NCBI GenBank assembly: GCA_002402125.1
Contig: NVVG01000011.1
Span: 29,969 to 42,207 of the forward strand
DNA: 12,239 bases
Source of the DNA: Moraxellaceae bacterium
GTDB lineage: Bacteria; Pseudomonadota; Gammaproteobacteria; Pseudomonadales; Ketobacteraceae
Direction: 5' to 3'
A program made the translations under genes and the position numbers. Below the pieces are notes generated by a model. That model was not told where the DNA came from, ran no database searches, and saw only the letters and a program-made list of their open reading frames with translations. Numbering within the stretch: position 1 is the stretch's first letter; each line of letters opens with the position of its first letter. Of the stretch, positions 3,527 to 12,239 are shown one piece after another.

Positions 3527-4225
3527 GTGTCAGTGTTTAATTCCTTAGGACCTAGATTGCAAGCAATCTTCGATGTGATCGCATTCGCCCAGCAGGTTCG
3601 ATGCTATGACCGGGTTTGGGATTGCTGTTGTGATCATGGGTACTTAGGCATGAGTATTGTGAATGCAGCTTTGTGTGAGAAATTAATTTTTGTTGACCAG
3701 GTGCCGCATATTGCTCAGCAGTTAGAACGACAGTTGCTAGAGCAGCCATTGTTATATCCAGCAGAGCGGTATGAGGTGCTGACAAGCGATGCAAGTGACT
3801 TGGATTTTAACTCTGAGCAACGGCATTTAGTGATATTGGCCGGTGTCAGTGGCAAAACCGTAGTTGATATTGTTCGTACCATTCGAAAAACTCATCCGTT
3901 AGGCAATATAGATTTTATCCTGTGCCCAACTAATGCTCTGTTTGATGTACGAGAGTATCTCGTGGCGAAGGAGTTTGTATTGTTATCAGAAAGTATTGTT
4001 GCGGAAAAGAGCCGTCATTACGAGGTGCTGTATGTTAGCCCTGGTGATGTTGAATCAACGGGTTCTCAATTGACACATACTGGTGCAATGTGGGATGAGA
4101 AGAACATTGAACACCAGCGTTATTTGGCAAGGATCATAGCGCATTATCAGCGGGTGGTTGAGGGCGGAAATGATGATCGAGCGGAGGGTATATTGCAGCG
4201 TTATCAGTCCTGTTTTTCAAGATAG
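3527..4225 (+). CDS. trmK: TrmK-family SAM-dependent methyltransferase (tRNA adenine-22 N1-methyltransferase-like)
   Basis: A 232-residue cytoplasmic methyltransferase of the COG2384/TrmK family, whose studied members methylate N1 of A22 in tRNA. The SAM-binding motif is the variant VWDCCCDHGYLG (about residues 30-41; usual form xDIGxDHxxLP). LAGVSGK (about 104-110) stands where the family has IAGMGG, and ILCPTNALFDVREYL (about 131-145) matches the LQPxxxxxxxRxxL region. The start is GTG at 3527, or GTG at 3533 in the same frame; there is no strong ribosome binding site. It lies 34 bp after the kinase and is probably co-transcribed. Most gammaproteobacterial tRNAs are not known to carry m1A22, so the substrate here is uncertain. 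A second, diverged partial copy lies at 12076-12239. Confidence 0.8.
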   Translation: MSVFNSLGPRLQAIFDVIAFAQQVRCYDRVWDCCCDHGYLGMSIVNAALCEKLIFVDQVPHIAQQLERQLLEQPLLYPAERYEVLTSDASDLDFNSEQRHLVILAGVSGKTVVDIVRTIRKTHPLGNIDFILCPTNALFDVREYLVAKEFVLLSESIVAEKSRHYEVLYVSPGDVESTGSQLTHTGAMWDEKNIEHQRYLARIIAHYQRVVEGGNDDRAEGILQRYQSCFSR

Positions 4226-4350
4226 CAGCAAACCTCAATACTATGTATAAACGCTAAGATGTTAAAATCCCTTTGCCTCAGTATCTTGAGTGTCGGGCAA
4301 AAAACAGGCAAAATGCGTGAAATTGAAGTTTATTTCTAGGAGTTTTTTGG

Positions 4351-4945
4351 ATGTATAGGGAAATGAAGAGTTTATTGTTTGTACCATTATTATTTGGGTG
4401 TGGTAGCAGTTCTAATGGGGGGGGGCTTGGAGCCAAGGGAGGCCGTTGATCCATATTTGGGTGTTTGGGAACGACCTTGTGTACCCTATGATGAGCATGG
4501 GTCGACCGGCATTTTTGGTGATGTTCTTGACCTTTATTCTGCTCCAGCTCTTGATGATGTCGGTCCGTTTTTCTATTGGACTGAAAAGCTCACAATTGAA
4601 CCAAATAATATTATTCTAGAGTTCAGCCTATTTACTGATGATCAATGTCAGGAGCTTGGTGATACTAGTGGGCTGTTTGGCGGTTTTACAGATTACATAT
4701 TTCAGCAAATGTACGCTGAGTTTTCTGTTGGTGGAGAAATTCTTGCTAAGAATGAGTTAGTATCAGATGAAGAGTTGTCCTTTATTCAATATGAAGCGCC
4801 AGTAGGAAGATCTACTCATTATGATGAGCTATATCTTAACGTGCGCAATGTTGGGGATAGACTATATAAAGTAGAAACGTCACACCACGCTTTGGAAGAC
4901 TATACCGTTAATTTTGATAAGTACTATATTCGAACTCAAAACTGA
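4351..4945 (+). pseudogene. Lipoprotein gene, frame broken at a nine-G run (possibly phase-variable)
   Basis: AGGAG at 4338-4342 precedes ATG 4351; ATG 4363 in the same frame is also possible. The frame opens with a lipoprotein signal, MKSLLFVPLLFGC, then SSSN and enters nine G (4417-4425). As sequenced it stops soon after, at GGCCGTTGA. One frame over, a 170-residue reading frame continues from the G-run to the stop at 4945. With eight G the two join into one lipoprotein of about 193 residues, cleaved before the cysteine of LFGC. The mature part (GVWERPC, then LTIEPNNIILEF and DDQC) looks like a small beta-rich domain with two cysteines; I do not recognise the family. The gene may be phase-variable, decayed, or intact with a base-calling error in the homopolymer. 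A palindrome of attC type lies 95 bp downstream. Confidence 0.75.
4417..4425 (+). repeat. Homopolymer of nine G inside the lipoprotein coding region
   Basis: Nine consecutive G directly after the signal peptide codons. Removing one G (or adding two) restores a continuous frame across the whole gene. Tracts of this length slip readily during replication and are the usual switch in phase-variable surface genes. Confidence 0.9.
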
Positions 4946-5039
4946 TTCGAACTGGTTGCGAAAATTAAATGCAATTCAAATGAGGCACTCCATATAGTAA
5001 CGTGTACGCATTTCACATAATAGTAATCGTACAGACACC

Positions 5040-5150
5040 TTTAACGATAGCATCAAGCGCGAAAGGTAATGCCGGTGCCATTTTTCGCTTCCGTTACACT
5101 ATAGCAAAAAATAACGCCAGTACTACCTTCGCCTTATGACGGGCGTTAAA
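5040..5150 (+). repeat. attC-like palindrome A (integron recombination site)
   Basis: The ends TTTAACG (5040-5046) and CGTTAAA (5144-5150) form a 7-bp R box. Inside are mismatched triplets (ATA opposite GGG), then an L-box-like stem in which CATCAAGCG pairs with CGCCTTATG through single-base bulges. An inner stem follows: GCGAAAGGTA (5059-5068) against TACCTTCGC (5124-5132), continuing inward with mismatches to CATTTTTCGC opposite GCAAAAAAT. The length of 111 bp is within the usual attC range of roughly 57-141. A chance hairpin would not be expected to show the R box, unpaired spacer, L box and bulges in this order, but no integrase is present to confirm it. Confidence 0.55.
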
Positions 5151-5207
5151 AATATCCCAGATCGATGTGGATTGAAAATTTAATGGTTATGGCTAACGTA
5201 CAATGAT

Positions 5208-5424
5208 ATGAAAGGAATATTTTTCTCGAACCATTGTTGCAATTATTGCGATCTCGTTTGGCTTGGTTTTGTATGGAATCATATTGCTTTCGATTATACC
5301 CGTACATATTCAACTTGCAGAAAGTGAGATTCAGGCATTAGGTTGGGATGCGAGAATTTTAATTATGGTAGCGCTAGCTAGTACCAGGACACCCACGCTA
5401 GAAAATAACATACAATTTTGGTAG
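5208..5424 (+). pseudogene. Small membrane protein, frameshifted just after the start codon
   Basis: ATG at 5208 is followed by AAA, but the convincing frame (from 5212, stop TAG 5422-5424) is one base off. With one A fewer the protein would begin MKEYFSRTIVAIIAIS, about 70 residues. It has a clear transmembrane helix (about residues 8-31), then a loop with VHIQLAESEIQALGWD and a weaker hydrophobic stretch (ILIMVALA). A TGA at 5209 blocks this frame from any upstream start. It starts 58 bp after palindrome A, the position of a cassette gene. The family is not recognised. It may be a decayed gene, a sequencing error in AAA, or use an unusual start. Confidence 0.4.
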
Positions 5425-5702
5425 TGATAAATTAAGTGGGAGTCCTATTGTTTTCGACCTTATTTGAATTCTACCAAGCCTATTTTTCTTTCCCTAACTT
5501 CTAGCCTTTCCAACTATATAACCTTATGTAAGCGACGATGTTAATATGAGTATAACAAATTGATAATCTCATAACACTGAAGCGCATAAATCTGTTATCC
5601 AAATTTTATTCTGCTAAAATACCCAGTTACTATCTCGATTTATATCATCAACGTTATCGGATAAAACAGACGAAATATTTCTGTTTACTTTCAATTGGCT
5701 AA
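5425..5702. other. AT-rich intergenic stretch before the TonB receptor
   Basis: No gene found. TAAAAT at 5615-5620 could be a -10 box, but the bases 17 upstream (CTGTTA) are a poor -35. No clear ribosome binding site precedes the receptor ATG, and no sigma-54 promoter or strong hairpin was seen. Confidence 0.4.
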
Positions 5703-8700
5703 ATGATGTTAGACATGGATCAAGAGATTTACATTTTCAAAGACTCCAGTATCCGATGGTCCTCAATCATTCGATACGGATTTCTATCACTTCTAATTAT
5801 TTTATCGCCAGTATCAAAAGCTAAGGATTCTAACCCTGACAGCATATATAGCTCAAGCATTGAGGATCTTATGCTCCTTAGTTTGGAGGAACTTCTAAAT
5901 TTACACGTGGATACTCTTAGAGACTCATTTTCAAAAGCAATTAGCCTTAAACGCTTAAATAGCACTATTTCAGATACCATCGTTGCAGAAGATATTGGCA
6001 AAATGCCAGACCGAAATATCGCAGAGGCACTGCAGCGTATTCCCGGGGTAAGTATTGCAAGAAGTAAAGGTGAAGGAACGTTTGTTACTATTCGGGGCAT
6101 TGCTGATAATCTAAATGTTACCTTAATCAACGGCCAAACCATTGCTTCTGCGGGTGACGGTAGAGGTATCGACTTTAGTAGCATGCCTGCGTCAATGATT
6201 TCAGCCATTGAAATATACAAAACACCAAAGGCAAGTGATATTGAAGGTAGTATTGGTGGTACTATTAACATTATTACCTCCAGGCCTTTGGATGTAGGCA
6301 TTGAAAAAGGTAGTCTTTTTGTTGAGTATACTCATAATAATTTCAATCAGGAAAACTCCCCTTCAATCTCTATTTCTTATATAAAACCAGTCAATACGAA
6401 TTTTGGAATTGCAACTGCAGTCTCTTACGAAAAAATCGAAACTCGCACTGATGCATTGATCAACGAAAGTTGGTCAGATTCTGAAACCGGATTTTACCCC
6501 ACGCGCTGGGAAGTCTCTAGTGAAGAGAGTGAGCGCGAGCGTAGTTCATTGATGCTAAATTTACAGTGGCAACCCGCTGATAATATTGATAGCTATTTGG
6601 ATATTAGCTACAACAAAGTAAAGGACGTTATAGCTAAGCATGCCTTTGCCACATGGATCCCGAATGGATACAACTCTATTATTCCTGATTCAATAGTTAC
6701 CAATAGTTCAACAAATACCATGACTGAATTTGCTGTTGATGAACTCTACATATCACCTTTTGATGACAATTCGGAATCCGAAATTCATACCCTAACCCTG
6801 CAACTCGGCGGTGAAATAGAACTCAACAAATTCGTTGCATCAGCGGCGATTGGTTATTCAGAGGCCGAAACTGAGCAGTTAACACAACGTATCCACTACA
6901 TTGATCACTGGACATTTAACGATGATAAGCACGATGCATTTTTTAGCCAAGTGGGTGGTGGGCAATATGCCTATCTTCCCTACGTTAATGGCGCTGCAGA
7001 AGAGTATTATGATCCAGCCATTCATCAAAACCATCCCGATGATGCTTATATCGAAGGCGGGAGCAACAACAATATTAACCGCTTAAGTTTGGGGCCCGTT
7101 ATCCGTGAGCCTGTTGAGAATTCTGATAAGGATACTTCATTCAAGTTGGATATTGAATATTTAGTCGGTAACAATAAATTTATCAGCTCAGTTGAAACGG
7201 GTTTCCGCTGGAATAAACGCGAAAAACAAACACTTTCCGCCAGCCAGCATTTAGGGCCCTGGCAAATCGCAGTTAATAATGCGACCTTGTGGGGACAAGA
7301 GCCTTTATTTCATGACCTATTATCATCTCAATATTCCCCCGCTAATTTTATGGGCGGTGAGGATGGACCAGGTGTTCCATCAGCATGGAATTCGGTGCTC
7401 GATTTTGATACTGCCGCAGCAGCATACGCAACTCATATGAATCAGGGTTTTGACCTAAGTAACGATGGTAGCGACCCCTTCTTTACCGATTTTGAAAGTA
7501 TATATGCAATTGTAGGGAACACGCCAGATCGACGTGGTGCTGTGGACAATATTGAAGAGTCAAAAGCTTTCTATGTGCAGGCAAACCTGGAGATGTTGAA
7601 TGGCGACCTACTAGGCAACATCGGTGTACGATATATTGAAACAGAGCTGACAAGCCATGCGCTGGTTGGAAGCAGCTTTGACGCAACTACGGGAGGCGCG
7701 TTAGCACCGATAACACTTGAACACGACTACGATAATATTTTACCCAGTATTAATTTGCGTTACGCGCTGAACGAAGATATGTATTTTCGATTTGCTGCAG
7801 CAAAAGTTATGGCTAGGCCCAATTTTAATCAAGCCAAAGCGGGCGCCATTGCGAATACCGACGGCTGGTATGATATTGGTATCGATGGTTTTGCGGACCC
7901 TGCAAATAATGTGTTTGCCGACGAAGATTCGTTTCTCGGGGGCAACGTAGCGTTGGATCCCTATGAAGCAAACCAGTTCGATATTTCTTATGAATGGTAT
8001 TTCAGTAACAGTGGCTTATTGTCTGCAGGGTTATTCTATAAAGATATCAACAGCTTTATTTTCAACGAAGTTCAAATTGGCCATATTCTTGTACCCAATT
8101 ACGAAACAGAATTCGGCAGTCGAGAACCCTACCCCACACTAGGCGATGTAGCCAATGGTGAAGTTCGACACACTGATAACAATGGAAATATCACTGATGA
8201 AAATGGCAACGACATTGTCGTCGAATACCCACTGCTATTTGAGACCGTCCAGCGCCCTATTAATGGTGACGGAGGTTATATCAAAGGACTGGAGCTCGCT
8301 TATCAGACAAATTTTCATTTGATTTCCGGGTTAGAAGACTATGGTATCGCTATTAACTACACCTATGCAGATAGTTCAGCCGAATACTTTAAGGCATCAT
8401 TTGATAACAATTCTGTAGACCTACCTTTTCAGTATCTTTCAGAGCATACCTATAATGTGACGGGTTATTATGAGGATGACCATCTGATGATTCGTGTAGC
8501 CTATAACTGGCGCTCCGAATCGTTGGAAAACCCGGCAAATGATTTAGATGGCATGGCTATTTGGCGCGATTCCTATGGCCAACTCGATACTTCATTCAGC
8601 TATACAGTAACCGAGTTTATGCAATTAACTGCCAGTATCAGTAATGTACTGGAAGAAAGTACTGAATTCTTCTCTGCGGAAAGAATTGATGGCAACCTGA

Positions 8701-8789
8701 TTAAAGGGGATTCGGTACCGGAAGATAGAAACTACGCCCAAACCTACAATGGTCGCGTCTTTCGTCTAGGTTTTCGTGTCATTTTCTAG
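5703..8789 (+). CDS. TonB-dependent outer-membrane receptor (Xanthomonas/Caulobacter-type)
   Basis: A 1028-residue outer-membrane beta-barrel that would import a ligand using TonB-ExbBD energy. N-terminal hydrophobic segment at about 22-38 ends in SKAKD, a plausible signal-peptidase site, with an unusually long leader before it. SIEDLMLLSLEELLNLHV (52-69) is the short helix often seen ahead of the plug in such receptors. The plug (about 88-196) has EDIGKMPDRNIAEALQRIPG (96-115), VTIRGIADNLNVTLING, and SAIEIYKTPKASDIEGSIGG, the signature of the family annotated TonB-Xanth-Caul (TIGR01782). The C-terminus FRLGFRVIF ends in phenylalanine as barrel proteins do. Related receptors often take up glycans or their fragments, but no enzyme, transporter or regulator gene adjoins this one, so the ligand is unknown. 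Start ATG 5703 is uncertain, with ATG 5706 and 5715 in frame. The gene appears intact. Confidence 0.93.
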   Translation: MMLDMDQEIYIFKDSSIRWSSIIRYGFLSLLIILSPVSKAKDSNPDSIYSSSIEDLMLLSLEELLNLHVDTLRDSFSKAISLKRLNSTISDTIVAEDIGKMPDRNIAEALQRIPGVSIARSKGEGTFVTIRGIADNLNVTLINGQTIASAGDGRGIDFSSMPASMISAIEIYKTPKASDIEGSIGGTINIITSRPLDVGIEKGSLFVEYTHNNFNQENSPSISISYIKPVNTNFGIATAVSYEKIETRTDALINESWSDSETGFYPTRWEVSSEESERERSSLMLNLQWQPADNIDSYLDISYNKVKDVIAKHAFATWIPNGYNSIIPDSIVTNSSTNTMTEFAVDELYISPFDDNSESEIHTLTLQLGGEIELNKFVASAAIGYSEAETEQLTQRIHYIDHWTFNDDKHDAFFSQVGGGQYAYLPYVNGAAEEYYDPAIHQNHPDDAYIEGGSNNNINRLSLGPVIREPVENSDKDTSFKLDIEYLVGNNKFISSVETGFRWNKREKQTLSASQHLGPWQIAVNNATLWGQEPLFHDLLSSQYSPANFMGGEDGPGVPSAWNSVLDFDTAAAAYATHMNQGFDLSNDGSDPFFTDFESIYAIVGNTPDRRGAVDNIEESKAFYVQANLEMLNGDLLGNIGVRYIETELTSHALVGSSFDATTGGALAPITLEHDYDNILPSINLRYALNEDMYFRFAAAKVMARPNFNQAKAGAIANTDGWYDIGIDGFADPANNVFADEDSFLGGNVALDPYEANQFDISYEWYFSNSGLLSAGLFYKDINSFIFNEVQIGHILVPNYETEFGSREPYPTLGDVANGEVRHTDNNGNITDENGNDIVVEYPLLFETVQRPINGDGGYIKGLELAYQTNFHLISGLEDYGIAINYTYADSSAEYFKASFDNNSVDLPFQYLSEHTYNVTGYYEDDHLMIRVAYNWRSESLENPANDLDGMAIWRDSYGQLDTSFSYTVTEFMQLTASISNVLEESTEFFSAERIDGNLIKGDSVPEDRNYAQTYNGRVFRLGFRVIF

Positions 8790-8923
8790 CGTTTTATTTG
8801 TGTGCATTTAAAACATCTGAAAAGGGTTCCGGAGATGATAGGTGGGTGAGCAGTTACAACAAATTCACTTATGCCCGCGGGCTGGTTAAACTCCACCTCC
8901 AACTTCCCTCATTGTGTGCACCC

Positions 8924-9025
8924 ATGACTTTTGCTGATCTCAATCTTCATCCCGCTGTCTTAGCGGGTTTACCCTCAGCACTACTACAAGGGCACCCACT
9001 CTGTCGTGAACAATATCTGATCTAA
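8924..9025 (+). pseudogene. Fragment resembling the N-terminus of a DEAD-box RNA helicase
   Basis: ATG 8924 opens MTFADLNLHPAVLAGL, which looks like the start of DEAD-box helicases (F-x-x-L-x-L-x-P-x-x-L-x-G-L). The next residues, LLQGHPLCREQYLI then stop, look like a damaged Q motif (normally G-Y-x-x-P-T-P-I-Q followed by a region resembling EQ.I). Nothing downstream resembles the Walker A motif, so at most about 33 codons of a roughly 400-residue-plus protein remain. No ribosome binding site is visible. Within it CCCGCT/AGCGGG (8951-8956/8962-8967) forms a 6-bp hairpin, and an imperfect inverted repeat joins 8991-8999 with 9043-9052. A non-coding explanation is possible. The surrounding 8790-9118 holds nothing else I can name. 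Confidence 0.35.
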
Positions 9026-9118
9026 ACAATGGAGTTGTTGGGGTGGGTGTCCTCAAAGGTACCATAAATTTGAAATCTCCCAGCTTTCACGGACATCAGG
9101 TTTTTCACTCTGCTCCTC

Positions 9119-9232
9119 TAACGAACAGATCAGTCCGAATTTAAAAACTGTGGCGGTTTTATGCCCATTCCGCTACGCTATATTCTTGCATAAAATCGCC
9201 CCATTTTTTAAATCGGGTTATCATGGGTGTTA
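9119..9232 (+). repeat. attC-like palindrome B (integron recombination site)
   Basis: Begins TAACG and ends GTGTTA, continuing as GTTAAAT, which fits the attC core GTTRRRY. After the R box come mismatched triplets, then an L-box-like stem (CAGATCAG against TTATCATG) with single-base bulges. A long inner stem follows: 9140-9164 pairs with 9188-9212 at 22 of 25 positions by eye, around a 23-base terminal loop. The size is 114 bp. It ends 29 bp before the next lipoprotein start, the usual cassette arrangement. Its first 35 bases recur at 9705-9739 with three differences. Confidence 0.6.
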
Positions 9233-9261
9233 AATAGATCTTAGAAAATGGAAGTTAGATT

Positions 9262-9660
9262 ATGAGAATAGGAATTTTTCTATTAACCTTTTTTATAGTT
9301 GGTTGTGGTGGGAATAGTAGTTCAGATAATCCAGCGGAAGAAGAAGCGAATTTAGTTGTATCGGTAAAAGATGCAGAAGGTGGAGCTGTCGCAGTAGATT
9401 CAATTTCATATTCAACAACGGATGACCCTGAGACCGAGCACGAGTTGGAGCCTGATTGTGATAACATAAGTTGTTTTGAGTGGGTGTTTCCTGAGGAACT
9501 AACGGGAGGCATAACTATTTCAAAAAGTATTATTCTCGAGAATGTTTCAGACCCTTTATGCATGGACTATTATGGCGCGGAGCAGTATGTAGAGGTTGAT
9601 CCAAATGTCACACAATATGTTGATTTGGTTCTTTACTATGAAGCAACAGCCTGTCAATGA
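9262..9660 (+). CDS. Small lipoprotein, unknown function
   Basis: A 132-residue protein with a textbook lipoprotein signal, MRIGIFLLTFFIVGC (lipobox IVGC, lipidated C15), then a flexible acidic linker (GGNSSSDNPAEEE). The mature domain begins NLVVSVKDAEGGAVAVDSISYS, the pattern of a carboxypeptidase-regulatory-like or other Ig-type beta-sandwich. It continues with cysteines in DCDNISCF, LCMD and the terminal TACQ, which could form two disulfides. GGAAG about 10 bases upstream supports ATG 9262. It lies directly after palindrome B and is followed 45 bp after its stop by the left half of a similar palindrome, as a cassette gene would be. No residue between signal and linker is D, so it is probably sorted to the outer membrane. 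Function unknown. Confidence 0.8.
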   Translation: MRIGIFLLTFFIVGCGGNSSSDNPAEEEANLVVSVKDAEGGAVAVDSISYSTTDDPETEHELEPDCDNISCFEWVFPEELTGGITISKSIILENVSDPLCMDYYGAEQYVEVDPNVTQYVDLVLYYEATACQ

Positions 9661-9704
9661 ACTAATAACAGAATATAAAACGTATAGAGGTGTGCTTCGT
9701 ACTT

Positions 9705-9739
9705 TAACGAGCAGATCAGCCCGAATTAAAAAACTGTGG
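9705..9739 (+). repeat. Left half of an attC-like site (truncated copy of palindrome B)
   Basis: These 35 bases, from TAACGAGCAGATCAG to CTGTGG, match 9119-9153 at 32 of 35 positions. The expected right half, ending in GTTA, is absent before the next gene at 9828. The remaining 88 bases (9740-9827) are AT-rich and not clearly related. The site therefore looks truncated by a deletion or rearrangement. Confidence 0.65.
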
Positions 9740-9827
9740 TAGACTAGCAACCTTCAAACCGACATTTTACAATTAGCTCGAATGTAAAAATTAAAAAAAC
9801 ACCATTTTTCACGCTATAGGGATATTT

Positions 9828-10697
9828 ATGAATTTTAAATCTTTAGTCTTTGCCATCATCGCAGTAGTCACGTTAGCTGGGTGTAATATAACCGTCACCA
9901 ACGAGGGAGGGGGCACGGTCACTTCCGATGATGGCAACATTTACTGCGGCGACATTTGTGAAGCCTCTTACAGCAACGATACCTTAGTTACTCTTACTGC
10001 AGAAGCATTTGAAGGGTTTATCTTTCAAGGTTGGTCTGGAGTCTGTGAGGGTACGGAGAGCTGTGAAGTTTCGGTTGGTCAAGCGAGTGGGCATAAAAAA
10101 GTAACCGCAATGTTCGAGCCTGTAGTGGTCGAGTACCCTTACGTCTACCCATCAATTGAAATTGTTGGTGCTAATGTAACATCTTCAACATACTCTTCTG
10201 GAGAATACAGCGAACCAATCACCTATATGATCGGTGTTTACGAGACACACAGCAATCACTCTGGCGGTAACCACCCTATGGGTAATGCAACCGTCAACAT
10301 TTCTGAGCAACCAAGTAATATTATATTAGTACTTAGCTCTTATGAGCCTGTCACTTGGGATATTCAAGGAGAAGGTGCTGATAATATCGAGAGACTGATA
10401 GTTCATGGATATCATGATCAGGTGGTAATAGAGGATAATTTATCTATTTCTGCAGAAGAATATACACATTTGGGAACAGGATCATATATCTCAAATAATT
10501 ACTATTGGCCTCAGCCTGAAGACATATGTCGAGATGACACTGAAGTTCCACCTGAGGAGTATTCACAAAATAATCGTATATGTAATTCCATCGAAGTACA
10601 GGAAAATATTGAAGCTCTTATTGGACAAGAAATTGATGTCTTTGCAGGCACATATAGCGCTACTGAGTTTAATATATCTATAGAGTCTTCTGAATAA
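9828..10697 (+). CDS. Lipoprotein with an InlB/bacterial-repeat beta domain
   Basis: A 289-residue lipoprotein. The signal MNFKSLVFAIIAVVTLAGC has a canonical lipobox (LAGC, lipidated C19). Residues about 23-96 form one bacterial-repeat domain (Flg_new_2/PF18998-like): GGGTVTSDDG, two paired cysteines (YCGDICEASY), then FIFQGWSGVCEGTESC and the closing VTAMFEP. This fold occurs in bacterial surface and adhesion proteins. The rest (about 100-289) is a beta-rich domain with Y/S/N-rich strands and a cysteine pair (ICRDD, RICNS) that I do not recognise. AGGGA about 9 bases before ATG 9828 supports the start. The stop is 5 bp before palindrome C, as in integron cassettes. Likely displayed on the outer membrane; binding partner unknown. 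Confidence 0.85.
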   Translation: MNFKSLVFAIIAVVTLAGCNITVTNEGGGTVTSDDGNIYCGDICEASYSNDTLVTLTAEAFEGFIFQGWSGVCEGTESCEVSVGQASGHKKVTAMFEPVVVEYPYVYPSIEIVGANVTSSTYSSGEYSEPITYMIGVYETHSNHSGGNHPMGNATVNISEQPSNIILVLSSYEPVTWDIQGEGADNIERLIVHGYHDQVVIEDNLSISAEEYTHLGTGSYISNNYYWPQPEDICRDDTEVPPEEYSQNNRICNSIEVQENIEALIGQEIDVFAGTYSATEFNISIESSE

Positions 10698-10702
10698 TAA
10701 TT

Positions 10703-10791
10703 TAACAAGTAGCTGCAATGGTCTCCGTAAGCTGTCACGATTTTTTATTCAAAAATCCTGCCAGCTTACTACGCAATTCAGCTAGGCGTTA
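10703..10791 (+). repeat. attC-like palindrome C (best-formed integron recombination site)
   Basis: R box TAAC (10703-10706)/GTTA (10788-10791); 3x3 unpaired spacer AAG opposite GGC; perfect 6-bp L box TAGCTG (10710-10715)/CAGCTA (10779-10784); one extrahelical C (10716); then AAT/ATT. The inner stem pairs 10727-10745 with 10751-10769 at 17 of 19 positions around the 5-base loop TATTC. This order of elements is the attC secondary-structure plan, and 89 bp is a normal size. It starts 5 bp after a stop codon. The core reads GTTACGT, a departure from GTTRRRY. Confidence 0.65.
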
Positions 10792-10801
10792 CGTAAGTTT
10801 A

Positions 10802-11026: not shown

Positions 11027-11074
11027 TTCCAATATCCTTCCCTAAACACTAAACAACAAATGGAATGCAACTTA

Positions 11075-11878
11075 ATGCAAAAACTATTAAATTTTGCCAT
11101 TGCTAGTGCCGCCCTTTTCACTTCCTCACTAGCACTTGCTGTGCCCTTTTCAGGACCCGATGCTTTTGGCTATAACGGTAGTGATATAGCTTTTGGCCTA
11201 ACAGATATCCGTACTTCTGGTACCAATATCGGCCTTGATAATCAAGATGATGGCTCCTTCACGAATGCCATAGGCTTTGATTTTGATTTCTACGGAAATA
11301 TTTTCACGGAAACACACGTTTCTACTAATGGCTTTATCAGTTTCGGCGCGAATAACGCTGGCAAATCTGGCTGCTGTAGCGGCGACCCCATTCCAACGCC
11401 GGGTAGTGGTCTAGATAACTTTATCGCAGGTTTCTGGGAAGATCTCAATCCAGGAAATGGCGGCTCAATCCGAACACAGACTATCGGTGATGTAGGCTCA
11501 CGTGAGTTTATTGTAGGGTATTACGATGTTAGAGATTTTGATGATCCAGGCAGTTCAATCAACACTTTCGAAATCATTCTGCACGAATTGACAAATGACA
11601 TCGAGATTCAAATCTTTCAAATTCAATTTGATGATGTCGACGATAAGACCGTTGGTATTGAAAATGAAGATGGCACAGACGGTATCGAAATATTGTTTGT
11701 CGAATCTTCTGATCCAAACTATAGCAACGGTGACATTCTAATTCAAAACCAAGCATTCTGCTTTAGCACTGGCGGTACCAACTGCGGTCAATCAACTAGT
11801 GTTCCAGCTCCAGCGACAGTAGGTCTATTCCTCTTGGGCTTGCTAGGGATTAAAAGAGCTCGAAAAACCAAGGCTTAG
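11075..11878 (+). CDS. PEP-CTERM-type exported protein with a nidogen-like domain
   Basis: I chose ATG 11075 over the in-frame ATG 11060 because it gives a standard Sec signal, MQKLLNFAIASAALFTSS then LALA before VPF, and GGA lies 10 bases upstream; the protein is then 267 residues. The central part matches nidogen-like extracellular domains: FDFDFYGN, HVSTNGFISFG, DNFIAGFWEDLNPGNGGS, REFIVGYYDV, NTFEIILHE. A CC pair and two late cysteines may form disulfides. The C-terminus is a sorting tail: VPAPAT, a hydrophobic helix (VGLFLLGLLGI) and a basic end (KRARKTKA). This is the PEP-CTERM plan with PAP in place of PEP, so an exosortase elsewhere in the genome would process it. Such proteins are linked to exopolysaccharide, biofilm and floc formation. 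It is preceded by a sigma-54 promoter match and followed by a hairpin, so probably forms its own transcription unit. Confidence 0.85.
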   Translation: MQKLLNFAIASAALFTSSLALAVPFSGPDAFGYNGSDIAFGLTDIRTSGTNIGLDNQDDGSFTNAIGFDFDFYGNIFTETHVSTNGFISFGANNAGKSGCCSGDPIPTPGSGLDNFIAGFWEDLNPGNGGSIRTQTIGDVGSREFIVGYYDVRDFDDPGSSINTFEIILHELTNDIEIQIFQIQFDDVDDKTVGIENEDGTDGIEILFVESSDPNYSNGDILIQNQAFCFSTGGTNCGQSTSVPAPATVGLFLLGLLGIKRARKTKA

Positions 11879-11907
11879 TAACGCTGCAATTGATACCTAG
11901 AATACGT

Positions 11908-11940
11908 GTAGTGGCTTCTAAACAATCATAGAGCCACTAC
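11908..11940 (+). terminator. Hairpin after the PEP-CTERM-like gene, probable terminator
   Basis: GTAGTGGCT (11908-11916) pairs perfectly with AGCCACTAC (11932-11940). A register with one bulged T extends the stem by TCTA/TAGA. It lies 29 bases after the stop codon. The following CATTTCAG is only weakly U-rich, so termination may be inefficient. Confidence 0.5.
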
Positions 11941-11986
11941 ATTTCAGCACACAGCATCAACTCCTCTTCTATTCATATTTATCTGT

Positions 11987-12091
11987 TTTTTAAACCCAGG
12001 CATGAAACCACTCATCGATCGAAACCCTTTGTTATTTTGGAAAGGTTTGAGTTTTGTCTTGATGGTCTCACAGGTGATCATGGTTATTTAG
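11987..12091 (+). pseudogene. 3'-end fragment of a second kinase/phosphatase gene copy
   Basis: Bases 11987-12082 match 3376-3471 (last part of the kinase/phosphatase gene) with only two differences, both silent third-position changes (AAG to AAA, CCG to CCA). The frame covers the FLNPGMKPLIDRNPLLFWKG region and most of the tail anchor, then crosses a deletion junction and ends at TAG 12089-12091 after VIMVI. Upstream of 11987 similarity stops abruptly, so all catalytic parts are missing. No function expected. Confidence 0.85.
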
Positions 12092-12239
12092 GCATGGGCA
12101 TTGTGCCTGCAGCTTTGTGTGAGAAATTAATTTTTGTTGACCAGGTGCCGCATATTGCTCAGCAGTTAGAACGACAGTTGCTAGAGCAGCCATTGTTATA
12201 TCCAGCGCATCGCTATGAAGTGCTGACAAGTGATGCGGG
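12076..12239 (+). pseudogene. 5'-truncated second copy of trmK (continues past the window)
   Basis: Bases 12083-12239 match 3639-3795, the intact trmK, without gaps. The frame is open from DHGYLG through QVPHIAQQLERQLLEQP to the window end, but the first 34 or so codons and start are gone. In their place the kinase tail is joined directly at GTGATCATG. Differences lie mostly in third codon positions plus a few replacements (S to G, N to P, E to H), and a core of roughly 100 bp is identical. The missing 5' part should inactivate it; whether the 3' part is complete cannot be seen. Confidence 0.85.

Follow-up and report, generated by a model that had tools for sequence, protein, structure and literature searches.

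A probable cluster of integron gene cassettes set apart from the integrase gene in a Ketobacteraceae draft genome

We analysed the last 12.2 kb (12,239 bases, called the window) of contig NVVG01000011.1 (here C90; 42,207 bases), part of the draft genome of a Moraxellaceae bacterium (GCA_002402125.1; 4.6 Mb in 302 contigs). The window carries a real integron cassette array of a known kind, marked by three attC sites (A, B and C), and is an ordinary example of a known gene-collecting system. Very probably, it is a decaying group of integron gene cassettes that sits downstream of a chromosomal kinase-trmK gene pair, apart from the integrase gene (a CALIN, or cluster of attC sites lacking an integron integrase), and its attC sites could be used by the integrase IntI in trans. 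A cassette array had been proposed in an original prediction made from the letters of the window. The array reading is borne out by the attC models (strongly at A and B, weakly at C), by an integrase gene with adjacent attC sites in the same genome and by relatives of the sites that lie in arrays.

The attC sites of the window

Two attC covariance models of our own making were used, R1 for distant integrons and R2 for related full-length sites. The sites that they scored are listed here.

5039..5151, + strand: attC site A, long type (R2 79.4 bits, E 1.2e-17)
9116..9235, + strand: attC site B, long type (R2 84.5 bits, E 6.5e-19)
10700..10794, + strand: attC site C, short type (R1 16.9 bits, E 0.016 in the window)

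All three palindromes point in the direction of the genes, just as the original prediction had described them, and the intervals between them measure 3964 bp (A to B) and 1464 bp (B to C). The canonical attC layout consists of R and L boxes with an extra-helical base. By eye, the ends of A, B and C resemble RYYYAAC and GTTRRRY, and the L arm of each site contains one extra base. When folded as single-stranded DNA, the bottom strand was more stable than the top strand at all three sites (−18.2, −20.3 and −20.9 kcal/mol for A, B and C, versus −15.7, −18.8 and −14.1 kcal/mol); folding of the bottom strands was a check that the original prediction had suggested. The corresponding z values were −1.85, −3.78 and −5.94 for the bottom strand and −1.46, −3.44 and −2.80 for the top strand. 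Shuffled sequences folded as well as the bottom strand in 9 of 200 cases for A and in 0 of 200 for B and for C. For site A, folding by itself is thus weak evidence, and it is the model score that carries the case.

R2 was trained on 14 full-length sites, five from locus L054 of a related genome and nine from other contigs of the same genome, with none from the window; one row of its alignment (L037:4935-5056) had boundaries that were off by a few bases. Across the 14 training sites, 86.4% of positions in the paired columns were indeed paired, versus 75.2% after shuffling and at most 41.9% when the sequences were slid; the structure was drawn from the same sites, so that this comparison favours itself. 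Nine of the 17 pairs had changed on both sides. R1 was trained on the arms of 12 sites from integrase-bearing contigs of Arenicellales, Microbulbifer, Pseudomonadales, Chloroflexi and another gammaproteobacterium. These sites were chosen by our own scan, and two of an initial 14 were dropped for odd spacers (L071:7071-7129 and L067:9290-9395). Two further alignments were discarded, one at full length with the Chloroflexi sites (A2), which was misaligned, and one (A3) with differing spacer lengths.

At E <= 10, R2 reported A, B and the reverse strand of B (17.9 bits, E 0.016) in the window and nothing else. With default filters, site C was the sole match of R1 in the window; in 153 kb, its E value was 0.2. 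With the filters off, R1 listed seven matches and missed A, B and C; sites of 95-120 bases probably exceed the longest hit that it allows. The check by covariance model thus stood firmly for A and B, while C scored weakly with R1 and was unlisted by R2. An Rfam search of the window gave four matches at E <= 10, none of them near its family cut-off and none to an attC family. A hand-written scan for R and L boxes missed B and returned false positives such as 8897-9043; adding a folding term brought A, B and C into its list, with false positives remaining.

By pairwise identity, A groups with B (63%) and not with C (A-C 47%, B-C 49%), and the earlier grouping of A and C against B was therefore wrong. 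Judged by the two models, A and B are of a long attC type common to related genomes, and C is of a shorter, less certain type.

An intact integrase and further attC sites in the genome and its relatives

The original prediction had suggested a search of the genome for intI. An intact integron integrase gene was found on another contig, C98 (1832-2812, 326 aa; TIGR02249 382.8 bits, cut-off 265); we take the one stop in the match to be the gene's own end (open reading frame (ORF) 1459-2439 of locus L004). It is divergent from its own cassette array, in which R2 placed attC sites at 3968-4078, 4406-4492 and 4939-5058. All three are training rows of R2. R1, which was not trained on them, scored the last part of the first and the whole of the second. 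A GTTAAAC boundary can be read by eye ahead of the first cassette, and on the other side of the integrase gene lies what we take to be a dehydrogenase-like ORF.

Across the whole genome, R2 found at least 20 distinct sites at E <= 3.3e-4 (150 of 998 candidates scored), eight of them from training and 12 new, A and B included. They lie on nine contigs (C71, C90, C98, C139, C143, C170, C180, C236 and C262). Site B is 93% identical to a site on C98 and 92% identical to one on C236. At E <= 1, R1 gave at least 16 sites; 11 had E values below 0.1, and 10 were on contigs where R2 had placed no site. A second, shorter attC type is thus present in the same genome. At eight loci (L144, L145, L146, L147, L148, L043, L045 and L047), the attC sites were mostly short, about 45-105 bases. 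The contigs with short attC sites may form a second pool of cassettes, or they may be foreign to the bin. Among the matches listed (7 of 10 in this genome), candidates for a second integrase on C145 and C269 were rejected, as they fell under the TIGR02249 cut-off; transposase-like ORFs beside them are presumably of the IS91 type. Pairs of a tyrosine recombinase gene and a transposase-like gene, the latter presumably IS91-like, were also seen near short attC arrays (L045 5634-7792 and L047 9198-11202).

The integron is shared with relatives. An integrase scored above the cut-off in all four same-genus genomes and in 28 of the 38 genomes searched, the window genome counted. Stretches in the same-genus genomes G001 and G002 match site A at 86% and 84% identity, and R2 scores them at 70.2 and 82.9 bits; the G002 locus has six R2 sites in one orientation (E <= 2.1e-11). 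Integrons on CAJXZM010000022.1, MAAL01000021.1 (42_54_T18) and CAJXXT010000094.1 encode integrases that are 80, 79 and 76% identical to that of C98. The attC sites of the last of these align with those of the window genome, and its integrase gene has an in-frame stop. At L054 (7695-8675), an in-frame stop divides the integrase gene into two ORFs (149 and 167 aa), and the attC array is well kept.

Chromosomal integrons of the Vibrio type have long attC sites that combine the R and L boxes with an extra-helical base, and the attC sites of Vibrio superintegrons are uniform. The genome analysed here resembles such sedentary chromosomal integrons of marine Gammaproteobacteria in its TIGR02249 integrase and its long attC sites of about 110-120 bp. 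It differs from them in having non-uniform sites (mean pairwise identity 59% among 22 sites of at least 95 bases) and a shorter attC type as well.

The array as a separate chromosomal cluster

Before the array, profile matches gave the gene order nirB (opposite strand), a PP2C-kinase gene and a trmK-like methyltransferase gene. The kinase-trmK pair forms the left flank of the array and adjoins the start of cassette 1. We found trmK in all four same-genus genomes. At their trmK loci (L092-L095, of which L094 ends shortly after trmK), R2 reported no attC site at E <= 1. The window array therefore occupies a site where relatives show none.

A search for Phage_integrase gave six matches on six other contigs and none on C90. 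The window thus combines attC folds (A and B by R2, C weakly by R1) with an intI family gene elsewhere in the genome, and no intI was found beside this array. The published definition of a CALIN, as given for IntegronFinder, sets a threshold of two sites (PMC9024848). With three clustered attC sites in one orientation and no integrase match on the contig, the array is a CALIN by this definition, unless sequence past the contig end says otherwise. Unlike a CALIN, it has an intact integrase elsewhere in the same draft genome, and one of its intervals has been enlarged to 4 kb by insertions. The folded bottom strand of each attC site would be the substrate for the IntI encoded elsewhere, acting in trans, and through this action, the cassettes could be excised and captured.

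Several points weigh against this reading. The genome is a draft, with a completeness of 87.1% and a contamination of 2.68%, and the R2 training set takes in nine sites of the same genome. Site C was not listed by R2 in the window even at E <= 10, and it was missing from the R1 whole-genome scan at E <= 1 (150 of 1166 candidates scored). Moreover, C90 ends 1.4 kb after site C, so that a link to the integrase-bearing array is possible. We keep our confidence high but short of certainty because of the absence of C from the R1 scan and because the placement of the cluster apart from the integrase competes with another explanation, namely that this array forms the distal portion of the main integron array and that assembly alone has parted it from the integrase contig. 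C98, too, breaks off just past an attC site, at 5077, and draft genomes tend to overestimate CALINs, as stated in the IntegronFinder 2.0 paper (PMC9024848). However, an array continuing from attI would show cassettes at its left flank, where the window array has the kinase-trmK pair. We consider a split by assembly alone unlikely.

That the palindromes belong to a family of miniature inverted-repeat transposable elements (MITE) or repetitive extragenic palindromes (REP) unrelated to cassettes, which the original prediction had named as one of its possible refutations, is very improbable. A MITE-like hairpin family does exist within the A-B interval, but its sequence is unlike A, B and C. The relatives of A and B are not scattered; they sit in cassette arrays, including the one behind the integrase. 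Site C is without a near relative among the sites compared (best 61%). In addition, 22 sources were searched with R2, and 10 of these (L035, L044, L046 and L048 included) gave no site at E <= 1. As stem-loops after genes, A, B and C might also be taken for intrinsic terminators, an explanation to which we give almost no credence, since the attC models score them, their R and L boxes come with an extra base, and a terminator scan listed none of them (six found elsewhere, 5.1 expected).

Cassette contents, insertions and the lipoprotein genes

The decay that forms part of the favoured reading is reflected in the contents of the array. The first cassette runs from the kinase-trmK flank to site A and holds a split lipoprotein gene.

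4262..5145, + strand: cassette 1, from a G|TTAAAA left boundary (by eye) to the G of attC A
4351..4449, + strand: 5' part of the broken lipoprotein gene with the lipobox LFGC, stopping after 32 codons
4417..4425, + strand: run of nine G at which the frame changes
4367..4945, + strand: rest of the split lipoprotein, open frame

The start of cassette 1 is probably the GTT at 4261, and the cassette may have entered the chromosome at this GTT as a secondary site. The frame break at the nine-G run may stem from slippage, from a fixed mutation or from an error in sequencing. The interval from A to B contains insertions.

5146..9229, + strand: cassette 2 interval, attC A to attC B, enlarged by insertions
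5386..5446, + strand: MITE-like hairpin AGGACACCCAC...GTGGGAGTCCT, with three relatives on contig C261 (76-83% identical)
5703..8789, + strand: TonB-dependent receptor, 1028 aa (TIGR01782 546.6 bits, cut-off 310)
8862..8977, + strand: copy of the start of a DEAD-box helicase gene (named by eye), with its first codons and the region upstream of them, 92% identical to C261:888-1003
8989..9053, + strand: second MITE-like hairpin GGGCACCCAC...GTGGGTGTCCT; right end 23/23 bases at C260:5815-5837, whole element by eye

The TonB-dependent receptor gene is bracketed by the two hairpins, which have AGGACACCCAC-like ends; this arrangement is an addition to the original prediction, as is the half attC site described below. 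A search of 13 other genomes at E <= 1e-60 gave no match to the receptor. Outside the window, the hairpin family has three copies on C261, an end on C260 and a weaker match on C164. One of the C261 copies (L149, about 7698) lies near sequence that begins like a long-type attC, where R2 reports no whole site at E <= 1. The source DEAD-box helicase gene is at the start of C261 and runs off its end; similar stretches occur in G001-G003.

After site B come a lipoprotein gene, half an attC site, a second lipoprotein gene and site C.

9262..9660, + strand: intact lipoprotein gene, 132 aa (lipobox by eye)
9702..9739, + strand: attC site lacking its 3' half (the 5' half is 97% identical to C98:4939-4976 and 89% to site B)
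9828..10697, + strand: intact lipoprotein gene, 289 aa, InlB-type repeat PF18998 (lipobox by eye)

With the attC at 9702-9739 reduced to its 5' half, both lipoprotein genes now belong to one unit ending at C. The frame break, the truncated attC and the insertions around the TonB-receptor gene would all be marks of decay of the array.

Beyond the last attC, the contig closes with two further features.

11060..11878, + strand: PEP-CTERM-type protein (TIGR02595 17.0 bits, cut-off 16)
11987..12239, + strand: fused fragment at the contig end, copying the kinase 3' end (98%) and the trmK 5' part (93%)

The Pfam PEP-CTERM score of the first protein was 19.0, under its cut-off of 20.7. In the fused fragment, the kinase and trmK parts meet across a short common stretch, GTGATCATG. 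The 124 bases past the PEP-CTERM gene (11868-11991) are 96% identical to the start of contig C247 (L163 1-124), where, read by eye, the repeat is followed by what seems to be the start of a Y1 (RAYT-type) transposase gene in place of the kinase fragment; it is absent from the listed ORFs of at least 90 aa.

The two intact lipoprotein genes and the one broken at a G run are as originally described. The further proposal that the array supplies variable surface proteins, which presumes that the lipoproteins would be expressed, did not fare as well. In protein searches, the 132-aa lipoprotein and the downstream piece of the split gene (4379-4945) each matched nothing but the window's own protein. 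Besides itself, the 289-aa lipoprotein had 16 remote partial matches (32-39% identity over 42-67% of its length).

Lipoproteins were counted with a crude, home-made lipobox rule among ORFs of 80-400 aa in regions chosen by hand. In this genome, they made up 9 of 56 array ORFs versus 3 of 89 elsewhere (Fisher p 0.011), but two of the nine come from the window, which had been chosen because of its lipoproteins, and one more at least (L037, 87 aa) is doubtful. This recount replaced a first count of 9 of 51 cassettes (54 sites, three without an ORF) versus 3 of 99, which had included doubtful calls. In the arrays of four relatives, lipoprotein cassettes were rare (1 of 31 ORFs, versus 3 of 84 elsewhere; p 1.0). 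The enrichment thus looks modest and limited to this genome.

As for other integrons, signal peptides are stated to be enriched in archaeal cassettes (13.2% versus 6.9%; PMC9668308) and to occur in cassette ORFs of macroalgal biofilm (11%) and of seawater (14%; PMC10963911), and a lipoprotein cluster is listed for the V. cholerae superintegron (PMC4032106). Among the literature titles listed on integrons with lipoprotein cassettes (25 of 102) or TonB-dependent cassettes (3 of 3), none dealt with a lipoprotein bias, which may still be in print. A bolder proposal is that the integron of this lineage mainly shuffles surface lipoproteins, with a lipoprotein-biased cassette pool and slippage at the nine-G run switching at least one of them, so that two variation systems would act on the same surface genes. 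We regard this as quite doubtful; the surface-variation reading as such is open and weakly supported.

Taken together, our findings concern a gammaproteobacterial genus represented here by draft genomes only, to which they add an integron that has attC sites of two types and, at a different location, a probable CALIN. The partly eroded array suggests a route by which cassettes may become fixed, through the loss of half an attC site and the insertion of hairpin elements. If the lipoprotein bias held true in complete genomes, the role of integrons as suppliers of surface proteins would become a testable idea.

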